From an uncultured Ilumatobacter sp. (GTDB lineage: Bacteria; Actinomycetota; Acidimicrobiia; Acidimicrobiales; Ilumatobacteraceae), in assembly GCA_937919625.1 (NCBI GenBank), contig CALFRK010000160.1:1-39962 (forward strand): a DNA stretch of 39,962 bases, in the 5' to 3' direction. Below, piece by piece: positions 10,960-18,558 of this stretch (positions are counted from its first letter, which is position 1; every line of letters starts with the position of its first letter). The notes under the pieces were generated by a model. That model was not told the origin of the DNA and did no database searches. It was given only the letters and a program-made list of their open reading frames with translations. The translations under genes and the position numbers were made by a program.

Positions 10960-11521
10960 GCCGCGGCTCCTCGGTTGAAGTGTCGACCGCCAGGTCGACG
11001 GACACGTCGATGGTTTTGTCGAGGGACTCGTCGGCCAGCGCACGAGCGACCAACTCATAGTCCTCTGGCGTTGCCACACCGAGCATTCGGGCGGCCCGCT
11101 GCCAACGCCGGAACGCAAACGCCAGCCCGGCCGTGCCCAGCACGAAGGCGGTCGCCGGCAATGCCCATGCCAGCGCCTCGACCCCACTGCCAGTGGGGAC
11201 CAGCAATTCCTCACCTTCGTACGCAACACTGATCTGTTGGATGATCTGCTCGTCGGAAAGATTGCCCTCGTTGACGCCTTGACGAATCCCTTCACGGATC
11301 TGGTTCGACGCCGTGTTGCGCGACTCGTACACGCTCTCACCTTGGCAGACCGGGCAGGCAAGCCGTTTTGAGATCGATTCGATCCGCTCGTCAGGCGTGC
11401 GCGGCCCCGTATCGCGGGTGGCTCCCACGACCAGGAAACCGACCACCACAAAGATCAGCAGAATCCAGCCCGGCCAACCCTTGAGACGCCGGTTCAAATC
11501 GCGGCGGGTCGAGCTGCTCAT
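10937..11521 (-). CDS. ccmH: Cytochrome c maturation thiol-reductase subunit CcmH
   Basis: A 194-aa membrane-anchored protein. One N-terminal membrane helix (19-34) is followed by the signature RLACPVCQGESVYESR, with redox Cys56 and Cys59, and the three-helix bundle of the CcmH/CycL family. A second membrane helix (about 112-135) ends the domain, and an acidic cytoplasmic tail follows. CcmH reduces or holds the CxxCH thiols of apocytochrome c at the outer face of the membrane before haem ligation by CcmF. Its ATG (11521) overlaps the ccmG stop as ATGA. Confidence 0.93.
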   Translation of the reverse strand: MSSSTRRDLNRRLKGWPGWILLIFVVVGFLVVGATRDTGPRTPDERIESISKRLACPVCQGESVYESRNTASNQIREGIRQGVNEGNLSDEQIIQQISVAYEGEELLVPTGSGVEALAWALPATAFVLGTAGLAFAFRRWQRAARMLGVATPEDYELVARALADESLDKTIDVSVDLAVDTSTEEPRLGTPDRS

Positions 11522-12123
11522 GCCGCACCCTCGCGCAAGGCCTGGATCAACGCACTCAGCCCGTCACCTGTGACCTCGCTGATGAACCGCCGCCTCACCA
11601 ACCCGTTCGGATCGATGATCCATGTCTCTGGCACCAATGCCACACCGAACCGGTTGACAAACTCGTACCGGTCGTCGAACACGATCGGCCAATCGCCGCC
11701 CCGCTCGGCGAAGAACTGTGCGACCTGATCTGGTGTGCTGTCGCGTACGACCGAGTAGAACTCGGCGCCGTCAACGCCCAACGCCCGTTGCTGGTCGACG
11801 AATTTGATCAACTCGGGGTGCTCCCTGATGCACGGGACGCAGTTGTGGGTGAAGAAGTTGAGTACGACCCAGCTGCCCTTGCGGCGCGACAGTTCGAAGC
11901 TGGTGCCGTCCTCGAAGACGCCAGAAACCGCCGGAGCCGGATTGCCGAGCAACGGTGAGTTCGCCGTTTCGTTGCTGGATGGTTTGGCGGTCAGCAACAC
12001 CACGAACAAAGCCGCCATCACGACCGCGACGGCGGCGACGACGAAAGGCGCCACCCGCCGTGAGGCGCCACCCTCATCGGGTCGGTCGTCGGCGACCGGA
12101 TCGGGCTTAGGCGAATCAGACAT
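11518..12123 (-). CDS. ccmG: CcmG/ResA/TlpA-type membrane-anchored thioredoxin
   Basis: A 201-aa protein with a hydrophilic N-terminus, one membrane anchor (about 25-46) and an extracytoplasmic thioredoxin fold. The active site is HNCVPC (Cys95, Cys98) and the cis-proline is in LVPETWIID, both standard for the TlpA/ResA/CcmG branch. It supplies reductant to the CcmH/apocytochrome thiols. The start overlaps the end of ccmF by 8 bp, and its stop overlaps ccmH by 4 bp, indicating translational coupling. Confidence 0.93.
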   Translation of the reverse strand: MSDSPKPDPVADDRPDEGGASRRVAPFVVAAVAVVMAALFVVLLTAKPSSNETANSPLLGNPAPAVSGVFEDGTSFELSRRKGSWVVLNFFTHNCVPCIREHPELIKFVDQQRALGVDGAEFYSVVRDSTPDQVAQFFAERGGDWPIVFDDRYEFVNRFGVALVPETWIIDPNGLVRRRFISEVTGDGLSALIQALREGAA

Positions 12124-14122
12124 CGGAGACCGCCGGTTCGGTGATCCGCTTGCGGGGTTCGGGGATCCGGGCCGATACAGGGTCGAGTGGATCGCGACGA
12201 CGGCGACCTGGAAACGCCGACAGCACCGTGCCGACTGCCATCATCAAGCCGCCGATCCAGAGCCACAGGATCAGTGGTTTGCGGAAGACCTCGAGCACGG
12301 CCTGGTTCGATCCAACGACTGGCGCGTTGGTGCCGGCGATCGTGAGGTAGACGTCGTGTGTCAGCCCTGTCCGAACGCTGGGCGTGGGGATCGGTTGACC
12401 CATCTGCAGGTAGGTGGTGAACGCCGGGCCGTAGATCCGGTCACCGTCGAGCCGCACGTTGGCGCGAGTGACGTCGGTGCGTGCGTCGCGCTCGCCGACA
12501 ACTTCGACCAACTCGAACGTGTGACCGCTCCACTCGACCGGCTCGCCGACGGTCAGGCGCAGTTCGGTCGACTCGGTGTAGGCGTTCGAGGCGACCAGCG
12601 CCACCGCAACAAGGATCACGCCGAGGTGCACCACCATGCCGCCGTTGGCACGCCCGAACAGCCCCCACAGACCCTGGCGCCTGGTTGCCAGCGCAATCTG
12701 GCGTAAGGCTGCGCCTGCCGCAAAACCGGCCAGAGCAAAGGCGATCAGAGGCGCCCAGCCGTCGGCGCCAACCAGAACGGCAACAATCAACGCGCCGGCG
12801 CCGCACCACGCCGGCCAGAACAGGCGTTGACGCAGCAATTCTTGCGACGCTTTGCGCCACGGCAACACGGGCGCCACGGCCATCAGGAACAGCAACGACA
12901 ACCCGATCGGCATCGACAGCCGATCAAAGTAGGGCGCCCCGACCACGGTACGACGATCCTGAAGTGCCTCGACGATCAGCGGAAACACTGTGCCCAGCAA
13001 CACGATGAACGCGAACACCGTGAAGACCACGTTGTTGGCCAGGAACGCTCCCTCGCGCGACAGCGGCGAATCCATGATGCCCGGCGATCGCAGCCGGTCG
13101 CCCCGCCACGCGATCAGACCGAGCGACACCACCACGACCAGGCCAAAAAAACCCAACAGGTAGCCGTCGATCTGACCGGCCGAGAAGGCGTGGACACTGT
13201 TGATGATGCCCGAGCGGGTGAGGAATGTTCCGAGGATCGTGAGGGCAAATGTGGCCACCAGCAAGCTGAGGTTCCAGACCCGCAGCATGCCGCGCCGTTG
13301 TTGAACCAGCACCGAATGGATATACGCCGTGCCGGTCAGCCACGGCAACAGGGACGCATTCTCGACGGGGTCCCAGGCCCACACCCCTGACCACCCCAGC
13401 ACCTCATAGCTCCACCAGCCACCGAGCAGGATGCCGATCGTGAGGAACCCCCACGAGAACAAGGCCCATCGGCGGGTCTCGAGCAGCCAGCCCTCGCCGA
13501 CGCGCCCCGTGATCAACGCCGCGATCGCGAACGCGAACGGCACGGTGAATCCGACATAGCCGAGGTACAGGATCGGGGGATGAAACAGCACCAGGATGTG
13601 GTTCTGGAGAAGTGGGTTGGGGCCCCGGCCATCAAACCCGATCGGCACCGTCGGTCCGGCCTGAAACGGGCTGGCCGGGCCAAAACTGACAAGTGCGAAG
13701 AAGGCACACACGACGAACATCACGACCATCGCCCATGCAACGAGCGGATCGTCAGCACGCTTGCGGAACCTCCAGGCGACCGCCGCCGTGAAGGCCGCCA
13801 GAACCAACACCCACAGCAGGATCGAACCCTCGAGTGCACTCCACATCGCAGCCACGTTGTAGATGCCCGGCGTCGTGCTCGATCCGACCTGCTGGATATA
13901 GGCCAACGAGTAGTCACGGGTTTCGAGCGCCCGCTGCATCGCTATCACCGAGATCAAGGCGCCCGCCAGGATCAACCAGGCATACACCGCTGCCTGCCTG
14001 ATCCCCTTACGGTTGCCGACGACGATCGCCAATCCGGTCGAGAGGGCGCCGACAAACGATGCGGTCAGCATCAACAGCAACCCAAAATGGCCGAGTGCCC
14101 CGTTGAAACTGGCGGCGATCAT
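12116..14122 (-). CDS. ccmF: Haem lyase subunit CcmF
   Basis: A 668-aa polytopic membrane protein with about 15 hydrophobic segments. The tryptophan-rich WWD motif is present around residues 235-262 (GGWWSYEVLGW, then GVWAWDPVENASLLPWL). NHILVLFHPPILYLGYVG supplies conserved haem-ligand histidines. CcmF receives haem from CcmE and ligates it to apocytochrome c. I chose ATG 14122 because the N-terminus MIAASFNGALGHF aligns with the usual MIAELGHFAL-like start; a TTG at 14163 overlapping the ccmE stop is an alternative. Confidence 0.95.
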   Translation of the reverse strand: MIAASFNGALGHFGLLLMLTASFVGALSTGLAIVVGNRKGIRQAAVYAWLILAGALISVIAMQRALETRDYSLAYIQQVGSSTTPGIYNVAAMWSALEGSILLWVLVLAAFTAAVAWRFRKRADDPLVAWAMVVMFVVCAFFALVSFGPASPFQAGPTVPIGFDGRGPNPLLQNHILVLFHPPILYLGYVGFTVPFAFAIAALITGRVGEGWLLETRRWALFSWGFLTIGILLGGWWSYEVLGWSGVWAWDPVENASLLPWLTGTAYIHSVLVQQRRGMLRVWNLSLLVATFALTILGTFLTRSGIINSVHAFSAGQIDGYLLGFFGLVVVVSLGLIAWRGDRLRSPGIMDSPLSREGAFLANNVVFTVFAFIVLLGTVFPLIVEALQDRRTVVGAPYFDRLSMPIGLSLLFLMAVAPVLPWRKASQELLRQRLFWPAWCGAGALIVAVLVGADGWAPLIAFALAGFAAGAALRQIALATRRQGLWGLFGRANGGMVVHLGVILVAVALVASNAYTESTELRLTVGEPVEWSGHTFELVEVVGERDARTDVTRANVRLDGDRIYGPAFTTYLQMGQPIPTPSVRTGLTHDVYLTIAGTNAPVVGSNQAVLEVFRKPLILWLWIGGLMMAVGTVLSAFPGRRRRDPLDPVSARIPEPRKRITEPAVSDV

Positions 14123-14159
14123 CGAGTTGGCCGGCAGCGTTGTGGCATCGTGGCGGTGC

Positions 14160-14657
14160 TCAAGTTGTTCCGGTTTCGCACGAGTCGGCGAGGGCATCAG
14201 CTTCCGATAGCCGCGCGTCGTTAACTGAGACGTACTCGTCAGAGTGCTTGACCTCGACCCGGTCACCCATAAACGTATTGCTGGCGACGTCGAAGCGACC
14301 ATGCACCACGACAGGGATGCACTCTTTGAAGATGCCACCGGGCTCGCCGTCGTAATGGACCGCGAACGACGCACCATTGAAGGCGATCACAAAATCGGTG
14401 TCGCCGCCCGACGACACCACCGTGCCAAGTTCGACGACGCCCTGGACCCGCAGGCGGCGGTTGGTATCGCACCCCGATCGGTCGCCTACCTCGTCGACAT
14501 TGCAGTAGTAATCGACCGCCGAACGCAAGAACTGCGTGACGATCACGCCGCCGGCGACAAGCACGCCGGCGATCACCACTATCGGCAGCCACTTGCGTCG
14601 ACCGCTGCGCGATCCGGGTCGCGGCTCGGGCCCGGACCGAGGGGTCAGGTCAGTCAC
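14160..14657 (-). CDS. ccmE: Haem chaperone CcmE
   Basis: A 165-aa protein with one N-terminal membrane anchor (about 24-45) and an extracytoplasmic OB-fold. The haem-binding motif is the HxxxY form: VEVKHSDEYV, His138 and Tyr142. His138 would form the covalent bond with haem. Two extra cysteine pairs (Cys52/Cys63 and Cys113/Cys160) are visible; their role is unknown. The start is GTG 14657, one base after the ccmD stop; an in-frame TTG at 14699 inside ccmD is less likely. Confidence 0.92.
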   Translation of the reverse strand: MTDLTPRSGPEPRPGSRSGRRKWLPIVVIAGVLVAGGVIVTQFLRSAVDYYCNVDEVGDRSGCDTNRRLRVQGVVELGTVVSSGGDTDFVIAFNGASFAVHYDGEPGGIFKECIPVVVHGRFDVASNTFMGDRVEVKHSDEYVSVNDARLSEADALADSCETGTT

Positions 14658-14658
14658 G

Positions 14659-14814
14659 TCAGGTCCAGTACTTGTCGTTGTCGTCGATGTGGTTGGCAAG
14701 CCGGCGCCCGCCGCGAATGACGCGCCATGTAAACGCCGCGATCACAGCAAATGTGAGTGCGTAGCTGCCAAAAATATAGCCGGCATCCTGCATGGCAACA
14801 ATCCCGCCGCTCAT
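14659..14814 (-). CDS. ccmD: Small haem-exporter subunit CcmD
   Basis: A 51-aa protein lying in the gap between ccmC and ccmE. The ATG at 14814 overlaps the ccmC stop by one base, and the stop (14659-14661) is one base before the ccmE GTG. It has a single membrane helix (about residues 13-32), then a basic stretch RVIRGGRRLA, and ends DDNDKYWT. That topology, the charge pattern and the Trp-Thr terminus match CcmD, which is needed to release holo-CcmE from CcmABC. Position in the operon, size and topology all agree. Confidence 0.9.
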   Translation of the reverse strand: MSGGIVAMQDAGYIFGSYALTFAVIAAFTWRVIRGGRRLANHIDDNDKYWT

Positions 14815-15587
14815 CACAAAAACTCGGCGCGGCGCTGGTCGAGCGCCCGATCGAGGCCCTGGTCGTCGAGCAGGTCTTCCATGGCGATCACCCTGCTGCG
14901 ATGCAGCAGCAACCAGACATAGAGCAACGTGAACGCCACCACTCCGACGAACAGGCTGAACAGCATCAGGCCGTCCATGTCGACATCGCCGTCGCTATCG
15001 AGCACCGATGCCTCCTGGTGCAAGCTGCGCCACATCCGCACCGAGAAGTGCACGAGCGGGATCTCGATCACCGCCAGGAGCCCAATCACCGCGCTGCGCT
15101 TGGCCCGCTGATCGTGGGTGCCGCCCAGCCCACGAACCGCCAGGTACCCGATATATGACACGAACAGGAGAGCTGTGGTGGTGAGGCGGGCGTCCCATTG
15201 CCAGTAGACGCCCCATGTCAGCTTGCCCCACAGCATGCCGGTGACGAGGGTGAGCGCCATGAACACCACCCCGATCTCGGCGCTCGCGCCTGCTACGCGA
15301 TCGAAACCGAGCGAGTGCTTTTTGCCAAACAAGTACATCGCCGAACTTACAGCCGTGACAACGAAGGCGAGATAGGCCAACCATGCCGTCGGAACGTGCA
15401 TGTACAGGATCCGTACAGCATCTCGCTGGTCGCGATCGGCCGGCGAGAACCCGAGACCGAACGCCACCAGCCAACCCATCGTGACGATCGTGGCGATGCC
15501 GAGCGTGCGAGTCGCCATGGTGCCCGACGAGCGCACGCGCAACGCCGGCTCGACGGGAGCGGTGGTTGGCGTAGTTGCTGCGGTCAT
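14814..15587 (-). CDS. ccmC: Haem exporter subunit CcmC
   Basis: A 257-aa protein with six membrane helices. The WWD motif WGKLTWGVYWQWDARLT is at about 120-136, flanked by His64 (in LYMHVPTAWLAY) and His180 (in IPLVHFSVRMW), positioned like the axial haem ligands of characterised CcmC. It attaches haem to CcmE. The start is ATG 15587; the TTG just before it is in frame but unnecessary. The last 40 residues form a cytoplasmic tail longer than usual. Confidence 0.94.
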   Translation of the reverse strand: MTAATTPTTAPVEPALRVRSSGTMATRTLGIATIVTMGWLVAFGLGFSPADRDQRDAVRILYMHVPTAWLAYLAFVVTAVSSAMYLFGKKHSLGFDRVAGASAEIGVVFMALTLVTGMLWGKLTWGVYWQWDARLTTTALLFVSYIGYLAVRGLGGTHDQRAKRSAVIGLLAVIEIPLVHFSVRMWRSLHQEASVLDSDGDVDMDGLMLFSLFVGVVAFTLLYVWLLLHRSRVIAMEDLLDDQGLDRALDQRRAEFL

Positions 15588-15609
15588 CAAGTTCCGTTCA
15601 CGTCGATCG

Positions 15610-16299
15610 TCACGTGGCTTCTTCGATCAGTGGACCAAACGCCAGAGCACCGCCGGCACCGAAGGCAACCGCAAACACGGCGAGCAAGCCGATCCACGGC
15701 CAGCCCTCCGAGAGCGCCACCCCATCGGTGCCGAGCGCTGACTCAACCGCTCGTGTCGCCCCGATCAGGACGGGCGCCACCACGGGAAGCACGAGTAGCG
15801 GGAGCAATGTCTCGCGACCGGTGAAACCTGCGGTGAGGCCTCCGTACAGCGTACCTACGCAGGCCAGCCCACAGGTCGCGGTCACGAGGGTTGTGGCTAA
15901 CAGCACGATCCCGCCAAGTGGCACCTCAGCGCCATACAGCAGAACGGCGGCGATCAGCAGCACGATCTCGAGCGCCGCCAGCTGCACGGCGAGCGCGATC
16001 GACTTGCCCCAGTAGATAGCGACCGGGTCGACGCCTGCCACCCGCAGAGCATCGAGGGCACCATCATCGCTCTCGATCGCGAACGAACGCTGCACGAGCA
16101 CGAGCATGCTGAACAGGGTGGCCAGCCAGATCAGACCTGGCGCCACACGTTCGAGCACATTCGAGGCGTCGAGAGCGAAGGCGAACATCACCATCGTGAC
16201 GCCGGCGAACGGCAGCACCTGGTTGGTGAGCACACGACTGCGGCGCTCGATCCGCAGGTCCTTGCCGGCGACCAGTCGGGCGATCCGCCAGCGGCTCAT
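15610..16299 (-). CDS. ccmB: Haem exporter permease CcmB
   Basis: A 229-aa membrane protein with six predicted helices. The N-terminal KDLRIERRSRVLTNQVLPFA and the segment RSFAIESDDGALDALRVAGVDP are characteristic of CcmB. With CcmA it forms the ABC complex that frees holo-CcmE. The ATG at 16299 overlaps the ccmA stop as ATGA. It is separated from ccmC by 22 bp, the longest break inside the operon apart from the ccmE-ccmF gap. Confidence 0.93.
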   Translation of the reverse strand: MSRWRIARLVAGKDLRIERRSRVLTNQVLPFAGVTMVMFAFALDASNVLERVAPGLIWLATLFSMLVLVQRSFAIESDDGALDALRVAGVDPVAIYWGKSIALAVQLAALEIVLLIAAVLLYGAEVPLGGIVLLATTLVTATCGLACVGTLYGGLTAGFTGRETLLPLLVLPVVAPVLIGATRAVESALGTDGVALSEGWPWIGLLAVFAVAFGAGGALAFGPLIEEAT

Positions 16300-16991
16300 G
16301 ACGGCGGCTCGACTTCGTGGACCTGACCGGCGACCACTTCGACGACCCGGTGGGCCAGCGAGCCTGCCCGTTCGAGCTCGTGGCTGGCGACAAGCACCGT
16401 GGCACCCGAATCGACCGCCTGTCGGAGCACGGTGTCGAGTTCGTCGCGACCGGCCGCATCGAGGCCCGCATGTGGTTCGTCGAGTAGCCACAGTTCGGCA
16501 CGCCGCGCCACCAGACACGCCAACGCCGTACGACGTTTCTGGCCCGCCGACAGCTTGACGACCATCACGTCGCGAAGCCGTCCGTCGACGCCGAGTCGTG
16601 TCACCGCCGCTTCGACTTCGGCGCTGGTGGCGCCCGCCGTGGATCCCCAAAACGCCACGTTCTCAGCCACGGTCAAGTCGCCGTAGAGGCCGTTGCGATG
16701 CCCCAGCATTCCGACCCGCGGCCGAATCGAATCGCGCTGGGTCGCCAGGTCGAACCCGAAGACCGAACCCGTTCCACGGGCAATCGGCAACAGCCCGGCA
16801 CACAACCGGAGCAGACTCGTCTTACCGGCGCCGTTAGGGCCTTGCAGCAACACGATCTCGCCAACGGCGACCGACATGGTTGCGCCGGCGAGCACCGGAA
16901 AGCCACCGATCACTGCAACCGCATCCGCGAGCGCGACGACTGGGGCGGCTGCGGTGGCTTTCGTGTTTGAAACCTCTGGCTCGACATCCAT
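16296..16991 (-). CDS. ccmA: Haem exporter ATPase CcmA
   Basis: A 231-aa ABC ATPase and first gene of the operon. Walker A is GPNGAGKT (51-58), the signature is LSAGQKRR (147-154), Walker B is LWLLDEPHAGLD (167-178), and the switch His is in VASHEL. The LSAGQ-type signature and small size fit CcmA. It powers release of haem-loaded CcmE rather than haem transport itself. The ATG at 16991 faces the sortase gene across about 94 bp. Confidence 0.93.
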   Translation of the reverse strand: MDVEPEVSNTKATAAAPVVALADAVAVIGGFPVLAGATMSVAVGEIVLLQGPNGAGKTSLLRLCAGLLPIARGTGSVFGFDLATQRDSIRPRVGMLGHRNGLYGDLTVAENVAFWGSTAGATSAEVEAAVTRLGVDGRLRDVMVVKLSAGQKRRTALACLVARRAELWLLDEPHAGLDAAGRDELDTVLRQAVDSGATVLVASHELERAGSLAHRVVEVVAGQVHEVEPPS

Positions 16992-17003
16992 GGACGAATG
17001 GAC

Positions 17004-17078
17004 ACGATATGAGCCACAGGCCGATTGCGCCCACTTCCAGGTTCCTGACCGCCGAGACTCGGGGCTGACCAGTATCGT
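17004..17078. promoter_or_regulatory. Divergent promoter region, ccm operon and sortase
   Basis: Identical TATCGT -10-like hexamers occur on the minus strand (17009-17004, 12 nt before the ccmA ATG) and on the plus strand (17073-17078, 7 nt before the chosen sortase GTG). The distances suit leaderless or very short leaders. No convincing -35 boxes are seen, so this is tentative. Confidence 0.3.
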
Positions 17079-17085
17079 CGTGGCC

Positions 17086-18558
17086 GTGACGGATCAGTTG
17101 GCCAGCGACGGGCTGGGCGAGAGCCGGGCGACTTTCGACGTCGACGCTACGACAGATCTGCCGGCCAGTGTCGGGGCCGACGCGGGACAAACTGCTCGTC
17201 GGCGACCGCGACGCCAGCGGATCAGCAAGTGGGACCGCCCACCCGACCCACACGATTGGCGGTTCTACGTCGGCAACCTCGGCAAGGCCCTGATCACCAC
17301 CGGGCTGCTGATGTTCGGCTTCGTCGCCTACCAGTTGTGGGGCACCGGCATCGAGTATGCGGCCGCTCAGAACTCGCTCGAGAGTCAGTTCGAGCAGCTG
17401 GCCAATCAGAATCTCGCCGATAACCCACCTCCCGACAACCCTTCCTCCGACGACCCACCCGGCGTCGCCGACGAGACGGCGGACGCCCCACAGATCGATA
17501 CCGACCCTCCAACAGAGGCCGACGCAGACGTCGTCGCCGACACCGAGTCTCCGATTGCTGACGCGGCAGACACACCGATTCCTGTCGCCCTCGACCTCTC
17601 CGATCAAGCGGTCGAGAAGGAACCTCCGACCGTACGCCGCGGCGATGTGCTCGCTCGGCTCGACATCCCGCGGATCAATAGCAACCCGATGTATGTCGTA
17701 CCCGGCGTCAATCTCAGCGACTTGAAGGATGGTCCTGGCCACTACCCCGACACCCCACTACCGGGCCAGCTCGGCAACGCAGCGATCGCCGGTCACCGCA
17801 CCACCTACGGTCATCCCTTCTTCGACGTCGATCAACTCGTGGCCGGCGACGAGATCGTCGTCACGATGGTGAACGGCGACCGATTCGTGTACTTGGTGAC
17901 CTTCACCGAAATCGTCGGGGCGAGTGAATACTGGGTGGTCACCACTCGCGACCCGAATATTGCTGAGCTCACGCTTACCTCGTGCCATCCCAAGTACACC
18001 GCTCGCGATCGCATCGTCGTCCACAGCGTGCTCGACCCGACGCGCTCGGCGAATGTCGGAGTTGCGACCTTCTACGACCTCGAGCCGGCCGACAACGAGC
18101 CAATCCCTGGTGACGATCCCGTACTGGTCGCCGACTCCCCAACCGGGGACACCGCAGTCGCGATCGATCCGTCCGGTAACGCCGACGTGGCACCCTCGAT
18201 TGGCGGCACCCCGGGCGTCGACGACATCGTCTCATCCGTTCCCGAGCTCACTCCGCCAGAGCCGAATGCAGCCGGCGAGACACAAGGCAACGACCAGAGT
18301 GCGGCGACGCCCGTTGCCAACAGCGAACCAGCCGAGGTCGAAGACGCCTTCTCGCAAGGTTGGTTCGACGACCGTTCCGCCTTCCCCCAGATTGCCTTGT
18401 GGGGTTTGGCGTTGACATTGATCTCGATCGGGGCCTACCGCATCAGCCGTCGGTACCGCCACGACTCGTTCGGGTTGCTCGTCGGCATCGCCCCGTTCTT
18501 GGTCGCCCTGTACTTCTTCTTCCAGAACATCAACCGCCTGCTCCCGCCCGGGCTCTAG
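17086..18558 (+). CDS. Class E sortase with C-terminal membrane extension
   Basis: A 490-aa protein (GTG 17086 start). Order of parts: basic cytoplasmic N-terminus, membrane helix (about 67-84), acidic Pro/Asp/Thr-rich linker (about 105-182), sortase domain (about 184-330), a second acidic linker (about 332-428), and two C-terminal membrane helices (about 433-453 and 461-480). Catalytic residues: His237 in IAGHRTTYG, Cys300 in TLTSCHPKY, and an Arg in TARDR (307-309). Sortases join surface proteins to cell-wall or other acceptors outside the membrane. The linker and extra helices after the domain are unusual for class E enzymes. ATG 16990 and GTG 17080 are alternative starts. Confidence 0.87.
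   Translation: MTDQLASDGLGESRATFDVDATTDLPASVGADAGQTARRRPRRQRISKWDRPPDPHDWRFYVGNLGKALITTGLLMFGFVAYQLWGTGIEYAAAQNSLESQFEQLANQNLADNPPPDNPSSDDPPGVADETADAPQIDTDPPTEADADVVADTESPIADAADTPIPVALDLSDQAVEKEPPTVRRGDVLARLDIPRINSNPMYVVPGVNLSDLKDGPGHYPDTPLPGQLGNAAIAGHRTTYGHPFFDVDQLVAGDEIVVTMVNGDRFVYLVTFTEIVGASEYWVVTTRDPNIAELTLTSCHPKYTARDRIVVHSVLDPTRSANVGVATFYDLEPADNEPIPGDDPVLVADSPTGDTAVAIDPSGNADVAPSIGGTPGVDDIVSSVPELTPPEPNAAGETQGNDQSAATPVANSEPAEVEDAFSQGWFDDRSAFPQIALWGLALTLISIGAYRISRRYRHDSFGLLVGIAPFLVALYFFFQNINRLLPPGL

Follow-up and report, generated by a model that had tools for sequence, protein, structure and literature searches.

We analysed a stretch of 39,962 nt from an uncultured Ilumatobacter sp. (contig CALFRK010000160.1, in the following "the window"), which is one whole contig of a 185-contig genome. 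The window encodes a sortase that is extended at its C-terminus by two membrane helices (16990..18558, + strand; translation, Pfam, NCBIfam). Sortases fasten proteins to the cell wall. We propose, with a probability of roughly 70%, that this protein is a housekeeping class-E-type membrane cysteine transpeptidase standing on a three-helix membrane platform. The class-E-type proposal builds on features seen in the sequence, i.e. a His-Cys-Arg site, an N-terminal membrane helix, the C-terminal two-helix module, and a divergent pairing with the ccmABCEF genes. The same domain and tail are joined in 188 non-redundant open reading frames (ORFs), counting the window copy and inactive relatives. The extension is genuine and conserved, and neither chance nor an assembly error accounts for it; a frameshift, which the preliminary description of this DNA had named among the results that would undo it, is ruled out because the architecture recurs in many assemblies.

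Domain layout of the extended sortase

The ORF at 16990-18558 is translated into 522 residues and a stop; all features of the protein lie on the + strand. The N-terminal tail (residues 1-97, 16990..17280) is predicted to be cytoplasmic and contains a basic RRRPRRQR stretch as well as a conserved WDRPPxPxDWR motif in front of the first transmembrane helix (TM1). AlphaFold2 places three helices in the protein, in line with the two C-terminal ones of the preliminary description. The first is long (residues 90-144, 17257..17421), with a membrane span judged by eye at about 98-117 and an extracellular extension behind it. It is followed by linker 1 (residues 145-211, 17422..17622), which has 67 residues with 19 D/E and 1 K/R, and by the catalytic domain (residues 212-352, 17623..18045), which was identified by Pfam and by structural matches to sortases. 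The PF04203 Sortase match covers residues 224-348 with 94.1 bits (cut-off 26.6). The catalytic residues His269 (17794..17796), Cys332 (17983..17985), and Arg341 (18010..18012) are invariant in 28 aligned homologues, the window copy included, and the Cys aligns with that of the TTCHPK motif of T. fusca SrtE.

Linker 2 (residues 353-450, 18046..18339) has 98 residues with 18 D/E and no K/R, so that an acidic linker of about 100 residues indeed precedes the helices. The conserved C-terminal module (residues 451-522, 18340..18555), delimited by the alignment of 28 and by class-wide matches, comprises helix 2 (residues 464-489, 18379..18456), which would run from out to in, and helix 3 (residues 492-517, 18463..18540), which is preceded by a basic SRRYRH stretch and would run from in to out. 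It ends with the conserved C-terminus FQNINRLLPPGL (residues 511-522, 18520..18555), in which P519 is invariant among the 28. The positive-inside residues suggest that both ends of the catalytic domain are tethered to one and the same membrane, which corrects the former wording of a domain tethered from both sides of the membrane.

Spread of the extended architecture

A profile of the C-terminal 85 residues (threshold E≤0.001) found matches in 111 of the 296 genomes of the class Acidimicrobiia. In genomes drawn from the phylum the fraction was 24 of 396, and 21 of these belong to the same class. Of the three matches outside the class, one (genome G332) is a clear module attached to a sortase that lacks the catalytic His and Cys; the two others are weak and not sortases. 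Some of the weakest matches are other membrane proteins. The tally of 111 genomes probably understates the spread, because the profile missed the extension in at least five genomes (G131, G209, G067, G225, and G272).

Module and sortase domain typically come together: 95 of the 102 ORFs with a module match also contain a sortase domain, and five of the other seven are membrane proteins of another kind with weak matches (E 4e-5 to 2e-3). For comparison, 20 class sortases were picked by eye for the absence of a module match. Nineteen end at most 30 residues past the catalytic domain, in a helix-free stretch, and the remaining one (L303) does have the extension. In the window's own genome, the sortases L001 and L003 are without extension, and L004 is incomplete, lying at the end of a contig.

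At E≤1e-5 the window protein is matched in 56 of 61 genomes (own, genus, family, and order), many of them via the sortase domain only. The best 80 relatives, 79 of which are named, are mostly from metagenome assemblies titled Ilumatobacter, Acidimicrobiales, Acidimicrobiia, Actinomycetota or Actinomycetes; the isolates among them include Ilumatobacter nonamiensis and Desertimonas flava, and one locus (L085) is titled Nocardioidaceae. On the tree, the extended sortases correspond to five changes with the backbone left open, and they may have a single origin. One genome (L027, G031:C1, ~130651-132953) has two extended sortases in tandem on the same strand.

Conserved helices and variable linkers

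Conservation was calculated as the mean per 20-residue bin of the 28 aligned homologues. The catalytic-domain bins have values of 0.53-0.87, with 0.87 around the His, and TM1 residues 111-130 reach 0.83. The C-terminal module has 0.55-0.62 in its body and 0.82 over the last 12 residues. Most linker bins have values of 0.17-0.35. Single positions of the N-terminal tail are also well kept (P84, P87, D89, W90, and R91, 0.86-0.93), and in the TM1 region F111, V112, Q115, L116, G118, T119, and Q127 are invariant. Class-wide, it is mainly the LLP part of the NRLLPP end of the module that tends to persist.

Across 27 sequences the two linkers are 24-97 and 27-151 residues long, and their net charge per residue ranges from 0 to -0.41. 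The alignment thus points to the helices as the conserved feature, with the tail about equal to the catalytic domain, and not to the linkers or their acidity, because linker charge and length vary while the helices keep their conservation. Of the two acidic linkers noted previously, the presence in the window protein stands, and their acidity and length do not hold across the 27 sequences. Acidic linkers as a functional feature were considered and rejected, given the span of net charges from 0 to -0.41 per residue. A Pfam scan of the 28 modules (E≤1) assigned no known family to the module of the window copy, and gave scattered matches with at most seven members per family and a best E of 0.00043 in a single member.

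Predicted structure

The AlphaFold2 model of the window protein (27 rows; model numbering plus 50 gives residue numbering) has a mean predicted local distance difference test score (pLDDT) of 74.6 and a predicted template modelling score (pTM) of 0.62. The C-terminal helices are near pLDDT 90, and the linkers are partly below 50. A short-linker orthologue (L109, 313 residues, 58 rows), modelled with helices at 9-65, 254-281, and 284-308, has a mean pLDDT of 89.3 and a pTM of 0.84. These values suggest a defined position of the platform relative to the catalytic domain, with helices that would pack against each other. The catalytic fold matches solved sortases of classes D, C, E, and F at Z values of about 17-23, and class A is also among the matches. 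The structural match lists are filled by sortase domains and are uninformative with respect to the C-terminal module.

Relation to known sortase classes

The best NCBIfam model is class E (NF033747) with 155.8 bits, or 156.1 bits in a second scan, followed at a distance by SrtD (77.8), class D (64), and class C (47.3). All 27 aligned members match NF033747 at E≤0.001, with a best E of 5.3e-54. By these scores the window protein is best described as class-E-like, a wording chosen because its own score lies about 4 bits under the class E cut-off. The earlier assignment to class E holds for the best model, the triad, the loop Tyr, and TM1, and falls short at the cut-off.

With class E sortases such as SrtE1 of Streptomyces coelicolor the protein shares the cytoplasmic N-terminal tail, the type of TM1, the triad, and the catalytic fold (5cuw, Z 17.9 and 21.2). 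By eye, its TM1 resembles that of a Nonomuraea class E sortase (L304). The Tyr of the β3/β4 loop is a further common feature, and L[AP]xTG signals occur in relatives. In the alignment with T. fusca SrtE, Y252 falls on a Tyr counted as residue 128, mutants of which are among the structural matches listed. A role of this Tyr in class E sortases is proposed in PMC5148588, and the position is occupied by 68 Y, 13 F, and 2 gaps in 83 His-Cys-Arg rows including the window. The window sortase differs from class E by its two extra C-terminal membrane helices, by the ccm pairing, and, in its genus, by the long acidic linkers. The Nonomuraea protein ends shortly past the catalytic domain without an extension, and the available text of PMC5148588 gives SrtE1 and SrtE2 a single transmembrane helix followed by a C-terminal catalytic domain. 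As far as this one sequence and that text reach, the view of class E sortases as proteins with one anchor and a short end is borne out, and the extension is not a common feature of the well-studied members.

Class C (pilin) sortases are similar in that membrane segments flank the catalytic domain on both sides. In contrast to class C, the window sortase scores 47.3 bits with NF033745 (cut-off 160), it has a two-helix module in place of the C-terminal transmembrane domain, and a pattern search found no sorting-signal gene in the window. Pilin or LPxTG genes adjoining the sortase gene are a class C feature. A class D sortase (4d70, Clostridium perfringens) is the top structural match to the catalytic domain, with Z values of 21.3 and 22.9 that lead the class C, F, and E rows by only about 1 to 2; with the class D model NF033746, however, the protein scores 64 bits (cut-off 165). 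In the titles, abstract openings, and text passages that the literature search covered, with most subscription journals outside its range, no description of this three-helix sortase architecture was found.

Candidate substrates

In the window, the pattern search detected no L[PA]xT[GA] motif followed by a hydrophobic tail, in agreement with the earlier statement that no LPxTG-type substrate is encoded nearby. A genome-wide search, as had been suggested, detected such proteins on other contigs: 8 of the 10 LPXTG-anchor loci read in the own genome combine an LPxTG motif with basic residues and a hydrophobic stretch; a 51-residue stub at a contig end is among the eight. That no substrate is encoded nearby agrees with a housekeeping role, because the LPxTG proteins lie elsewhere in the genome. 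LPxTG was the only form seen in the own genome, with a search model that is itself built on LPxTG; the class E sorting signal is LAxTG according to PMC5148588. The own genome has four PF04203 matches, three besides the extended sortase.

In 24 genomes the extended sortase is the sole PF04203 match, and 17 of them have a match to the LPXTG-anchor model TIGR01167 (E≤0.05). A clear L[PA]xTG motif followed by a helix and a basic tail was present in 15 of the 24 genomes (30 of 56 matches read), with LAxTG in six and LPxTG in nine. By pattern, the 30 loci comprise 12 LPxTG and 10 LAxTG entries, and two of the LAxTG loci overlap. The position of Y252 is Phe in two LPYTG genomes and Tyr in five readable LAxTG and four other LPxTG genomes, numbers too small for a correlation.

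Relatives without catalytic His and/or Cys

Class-wide, sortase domain and module are combined in 95 ORFs; all three catalytic residues are present in 82 of them, His and/or Cys are missing from 12, and one ORF is partial. The replacements are mostly His to Arg and Cys to Ser, with one ORF unaligned at the Cys. The 12 inactive copies (loci L272-L283; genomes G332, G155, G170, G227, G192, G188, G156, G135, G195, G245, G077, and G116) are represented in the tree by 11 rows, which form one clade with support values of 100/96, the bootstrap being not settled. A related clade has thus lost the catalytic His and/or Cys and kept the platform.

Clustering of the genes at the 12 loci revealed binding-protein-like genes in nine, permease-like genes in nine, and ABC ATPase-like genes in eight. 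Pfam analysis of nine proteins from four loci (L272, L274, L277, and L279) gave PBP_like_2, BPD_transp_1, and ABC_tran, and we take these transporters to be of the phosphate type. At the six loci with ends read, a large protein encoded just upstream ends in a hydrophobic stretch and then basic residues. The simplest idea is that the inactive sortases would hold such protein tails non-covalently.

Pairing with the ccm genes

The sortase gene and ccmA lie head to head, and beyond ccmA come ccmB, ccmC, ccmE, ccmF, and a ResA-like gene; the preliminary description had not mentioned this pairing. All six are on the - strand. The divergent neighbour ccmA (16296..16991; TIGR01189 154.7 bits, cut-off 131.6) encodes the haem exporter ATPase. 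It is followed by ccmB (15610..16305; PF03379 97.7 bits, cut-off 24.9; TIGR01190 62.9 bits, below the cut-off of 156.2), ccmC (14814..15590; PF01578; TIGR01191 162.5 bits, below the cut-off of 186), ccmE (14160..14699; PF03100 55.1 bits, cut-off 24.6), ccmF (12116..14377; PF16327 and PF01578), and a ResA/CcmG-like thiol-disulfide oxidoreductase gene (11518..12123; Redoxin; ResA model 61 bits, below the cut-off of 170).

Among the matches listed, module and CcmE are on one contig in 35 of the 45 genomes that have both, and on different contigs in the other 10. In all 35 the arrangement is divergent with 3.0-4.5 kb between the two matches. In four further genomes, which have no module match, CcmE and the listed sortase share a contig; three of these sortases (G131, G209, and G225) have the extension, and the fourth (G233) is truncated at the end of its contig. 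Among 77 named loci, ccmB is on the opposite strand in 59, and homologues of ccmC are present in 53, of ccmE in 50, and of ccmF in 45; many of the loci without ccm neighbours have little upstream sequence.

In 15 genomes without a module match at the listed sortase, CcmE and that sortase are never on one contig (by eye), and the module is absent from the nine of these genomes' sortases that were read. This contrast is weak, because the assemblies are fragmented and the comparison is limited to the matches listed. The co-occurrence with CcmE is uninformative as well, because CcmE is present in 269 of the 296 class genomes. We read the pairing as shared regulation or a frozen gene order, and not as evidence of cytochrome substrates.

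Proposed mechanism and alternative explanations

We propose that the N-terminus is cytoplasmic, that TM1 places the catalytic domain on the outer side of the membrane, and that the flexible linkers serve as spacers. Helices 2 and 3 would form an out-in-out hairpin that packs with TM1 as a platform beneath the catalytic domain. The substrates would be proteins that a sorting-signal helix retains in the membrane; the enzyme would cut their L[PA]xTG motif between T and G and transfer the cleaved proteins to a cell-wall precursor. The platform likely keeps the catalytic domain near the membrane and helps to receive the membrane helix of the substrate, an analogy drawn from class C sortases, whose activity is promoted by their C-terminal membrane region. 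According to PMC3493515, class C sortases are less active without this region, and no full-length class C structure existed as of 2012. Topology, packing, catalysis, and docking of the substrate by the platform are all inferred. The family is widespread, its membrane domain is conserved, and some members have short linkers and a confident model, which makes it an entry point to a full-length structure. Little is understood of the way in which sortases recognise the portion of a substrate that is embedded in the membrane.

Several results weigh against the proposed reading as a whole. The window protein misses the NF033747 cut-off of 160 by about 4 bits, and 12 of the 95 module ORFs are without catalytic His and/or Cys, so that the module is not tied to catalysis alone. 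Covariation (178 sequences, effective number 145) is suggestive at best and gives weak support for the platform: coupling between TM1 and the module accounts for 37 of the top 200 pairs versus 22.8 expected, a slight excess, and that between the catalytic domain and the module is depleted, with 35 pairs versus 57.9 expected. The LPxTG proteins of the own genome are not assignable to the extended sortase because of the three other PF04203 matches. Nine of the 24 single-sortase genomes have no clear signal in the loci read, and 7 of 14 control genomes, archaea among them, also match TIGR01167 at E≤0.05. The ccm pairing is not universal, with at least 5 of the 77 named loci having more than 5 kb of upstream sequence without ccm genes (L093, L101, L106, L110, and L113).

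The weak covariation of the module with the rest of the protein would fit a passive anchor, i.e. an extension that serves membrane retention only, is conserved through the constraints on a hairpin, and has no role in the choice of substrates. Such an anchor would have a parallel in class C sortases, which need their C-terminal domain for membrane insertion (PMC3493515). TM1 already anchors the protein, however, and the NRLLPP end and the GWFxD motif with which the module begins show more conservation than an anchor seems to require; on balance we regard this explanation as unlikely, if not strongly so.

A more far-reaching version of the platform proposal would make the two-helix module an intramembrane receptor for the sorting-signal helix, a docking site that other sortases lack. 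In Acidimicrobiia it would serve two purposes: next to a live catalytic domain, the cleavage and anchoring of L[PA]xTG proteins; in the inactive clade, the holding of membrane-tailed binding proteins that stay uncut. We put this forward as a tentative idea that is rather improbable in its full form. The inactive relatives that retain the membrane domain would make its role testable apart from catalysis.

The sortase could also work together with the Ccm proteins and modify or position c-type cytochromes or a haem-handling protein. The divergent order at 3.0-4.5 kb in 35 of 35 same-contig genomes (among the matches listed) and the opposite-strand ccmB at 59 of 77 named loci are compatible with such a link, and in Actinomyces oris electron transport is tied to pilus assembly via oxidative folding (PMC5478893). 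Nevertheless, none of the sorting-signal ORFs printed contains a CxxCH motif, the occurrence of CcmE in 269 of 296 class genomes makes its co-occurrence tell little, and the pairing has exceptions, and a functional link to Ccm is therefore quite improbable. The chance that a frameshift or misassembly fused the sortase with an unrelated membrane gene is negligible for the window, where nothing points to it and whose architecture is shared by 188 non-redundant ORFs of numerous assemblies, including those of named isolates; the module is apart from the sortase frame in two other genomes (L154/L269 and L163/L268).

In the latter of these (G248:C1) the module is in a different frame from the sortase and adjoins ccm, and in the former (G273:C13) a strong module match has no sortase match in the 5 kb read. 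L268 and L269 are broken genes or assembly errors in those genomes.

Start codon and further observations

The ATG at 16990 and the ATG of ccmA on the opposite strand overlap within the letters CATG. An alternative GTG at 17086 would yield 490 residues. This start is plausible, and the ATG doubtful, because a GTG-coded VTDxL, at residue 33 of the window protein, recurs in 5 of 9 relatives compared, which makes 6 of 10 sequences together with the window. Scans for promoters, terminators, and Rfam families found nothing. A short imperfect repeat (period 15, 2.9 copies) is present at 17417-17459 around the start of linker 1.

Two sortases, L001 of the own genome (G000:C65) and L299 (G009), represent a second type in the genus that may be lipid-anchored, as judged from the lipobox-like N-termini LGLSACG and LTLAACG. 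The related L298 and L300 have no lipobox-like motif at the N-terminal hydrophobic stretch. The third sortase-like protein of the own genome, L003 (G000:C26), is on a very long tree branch and has its domain near the end of a 646-residue open frame.

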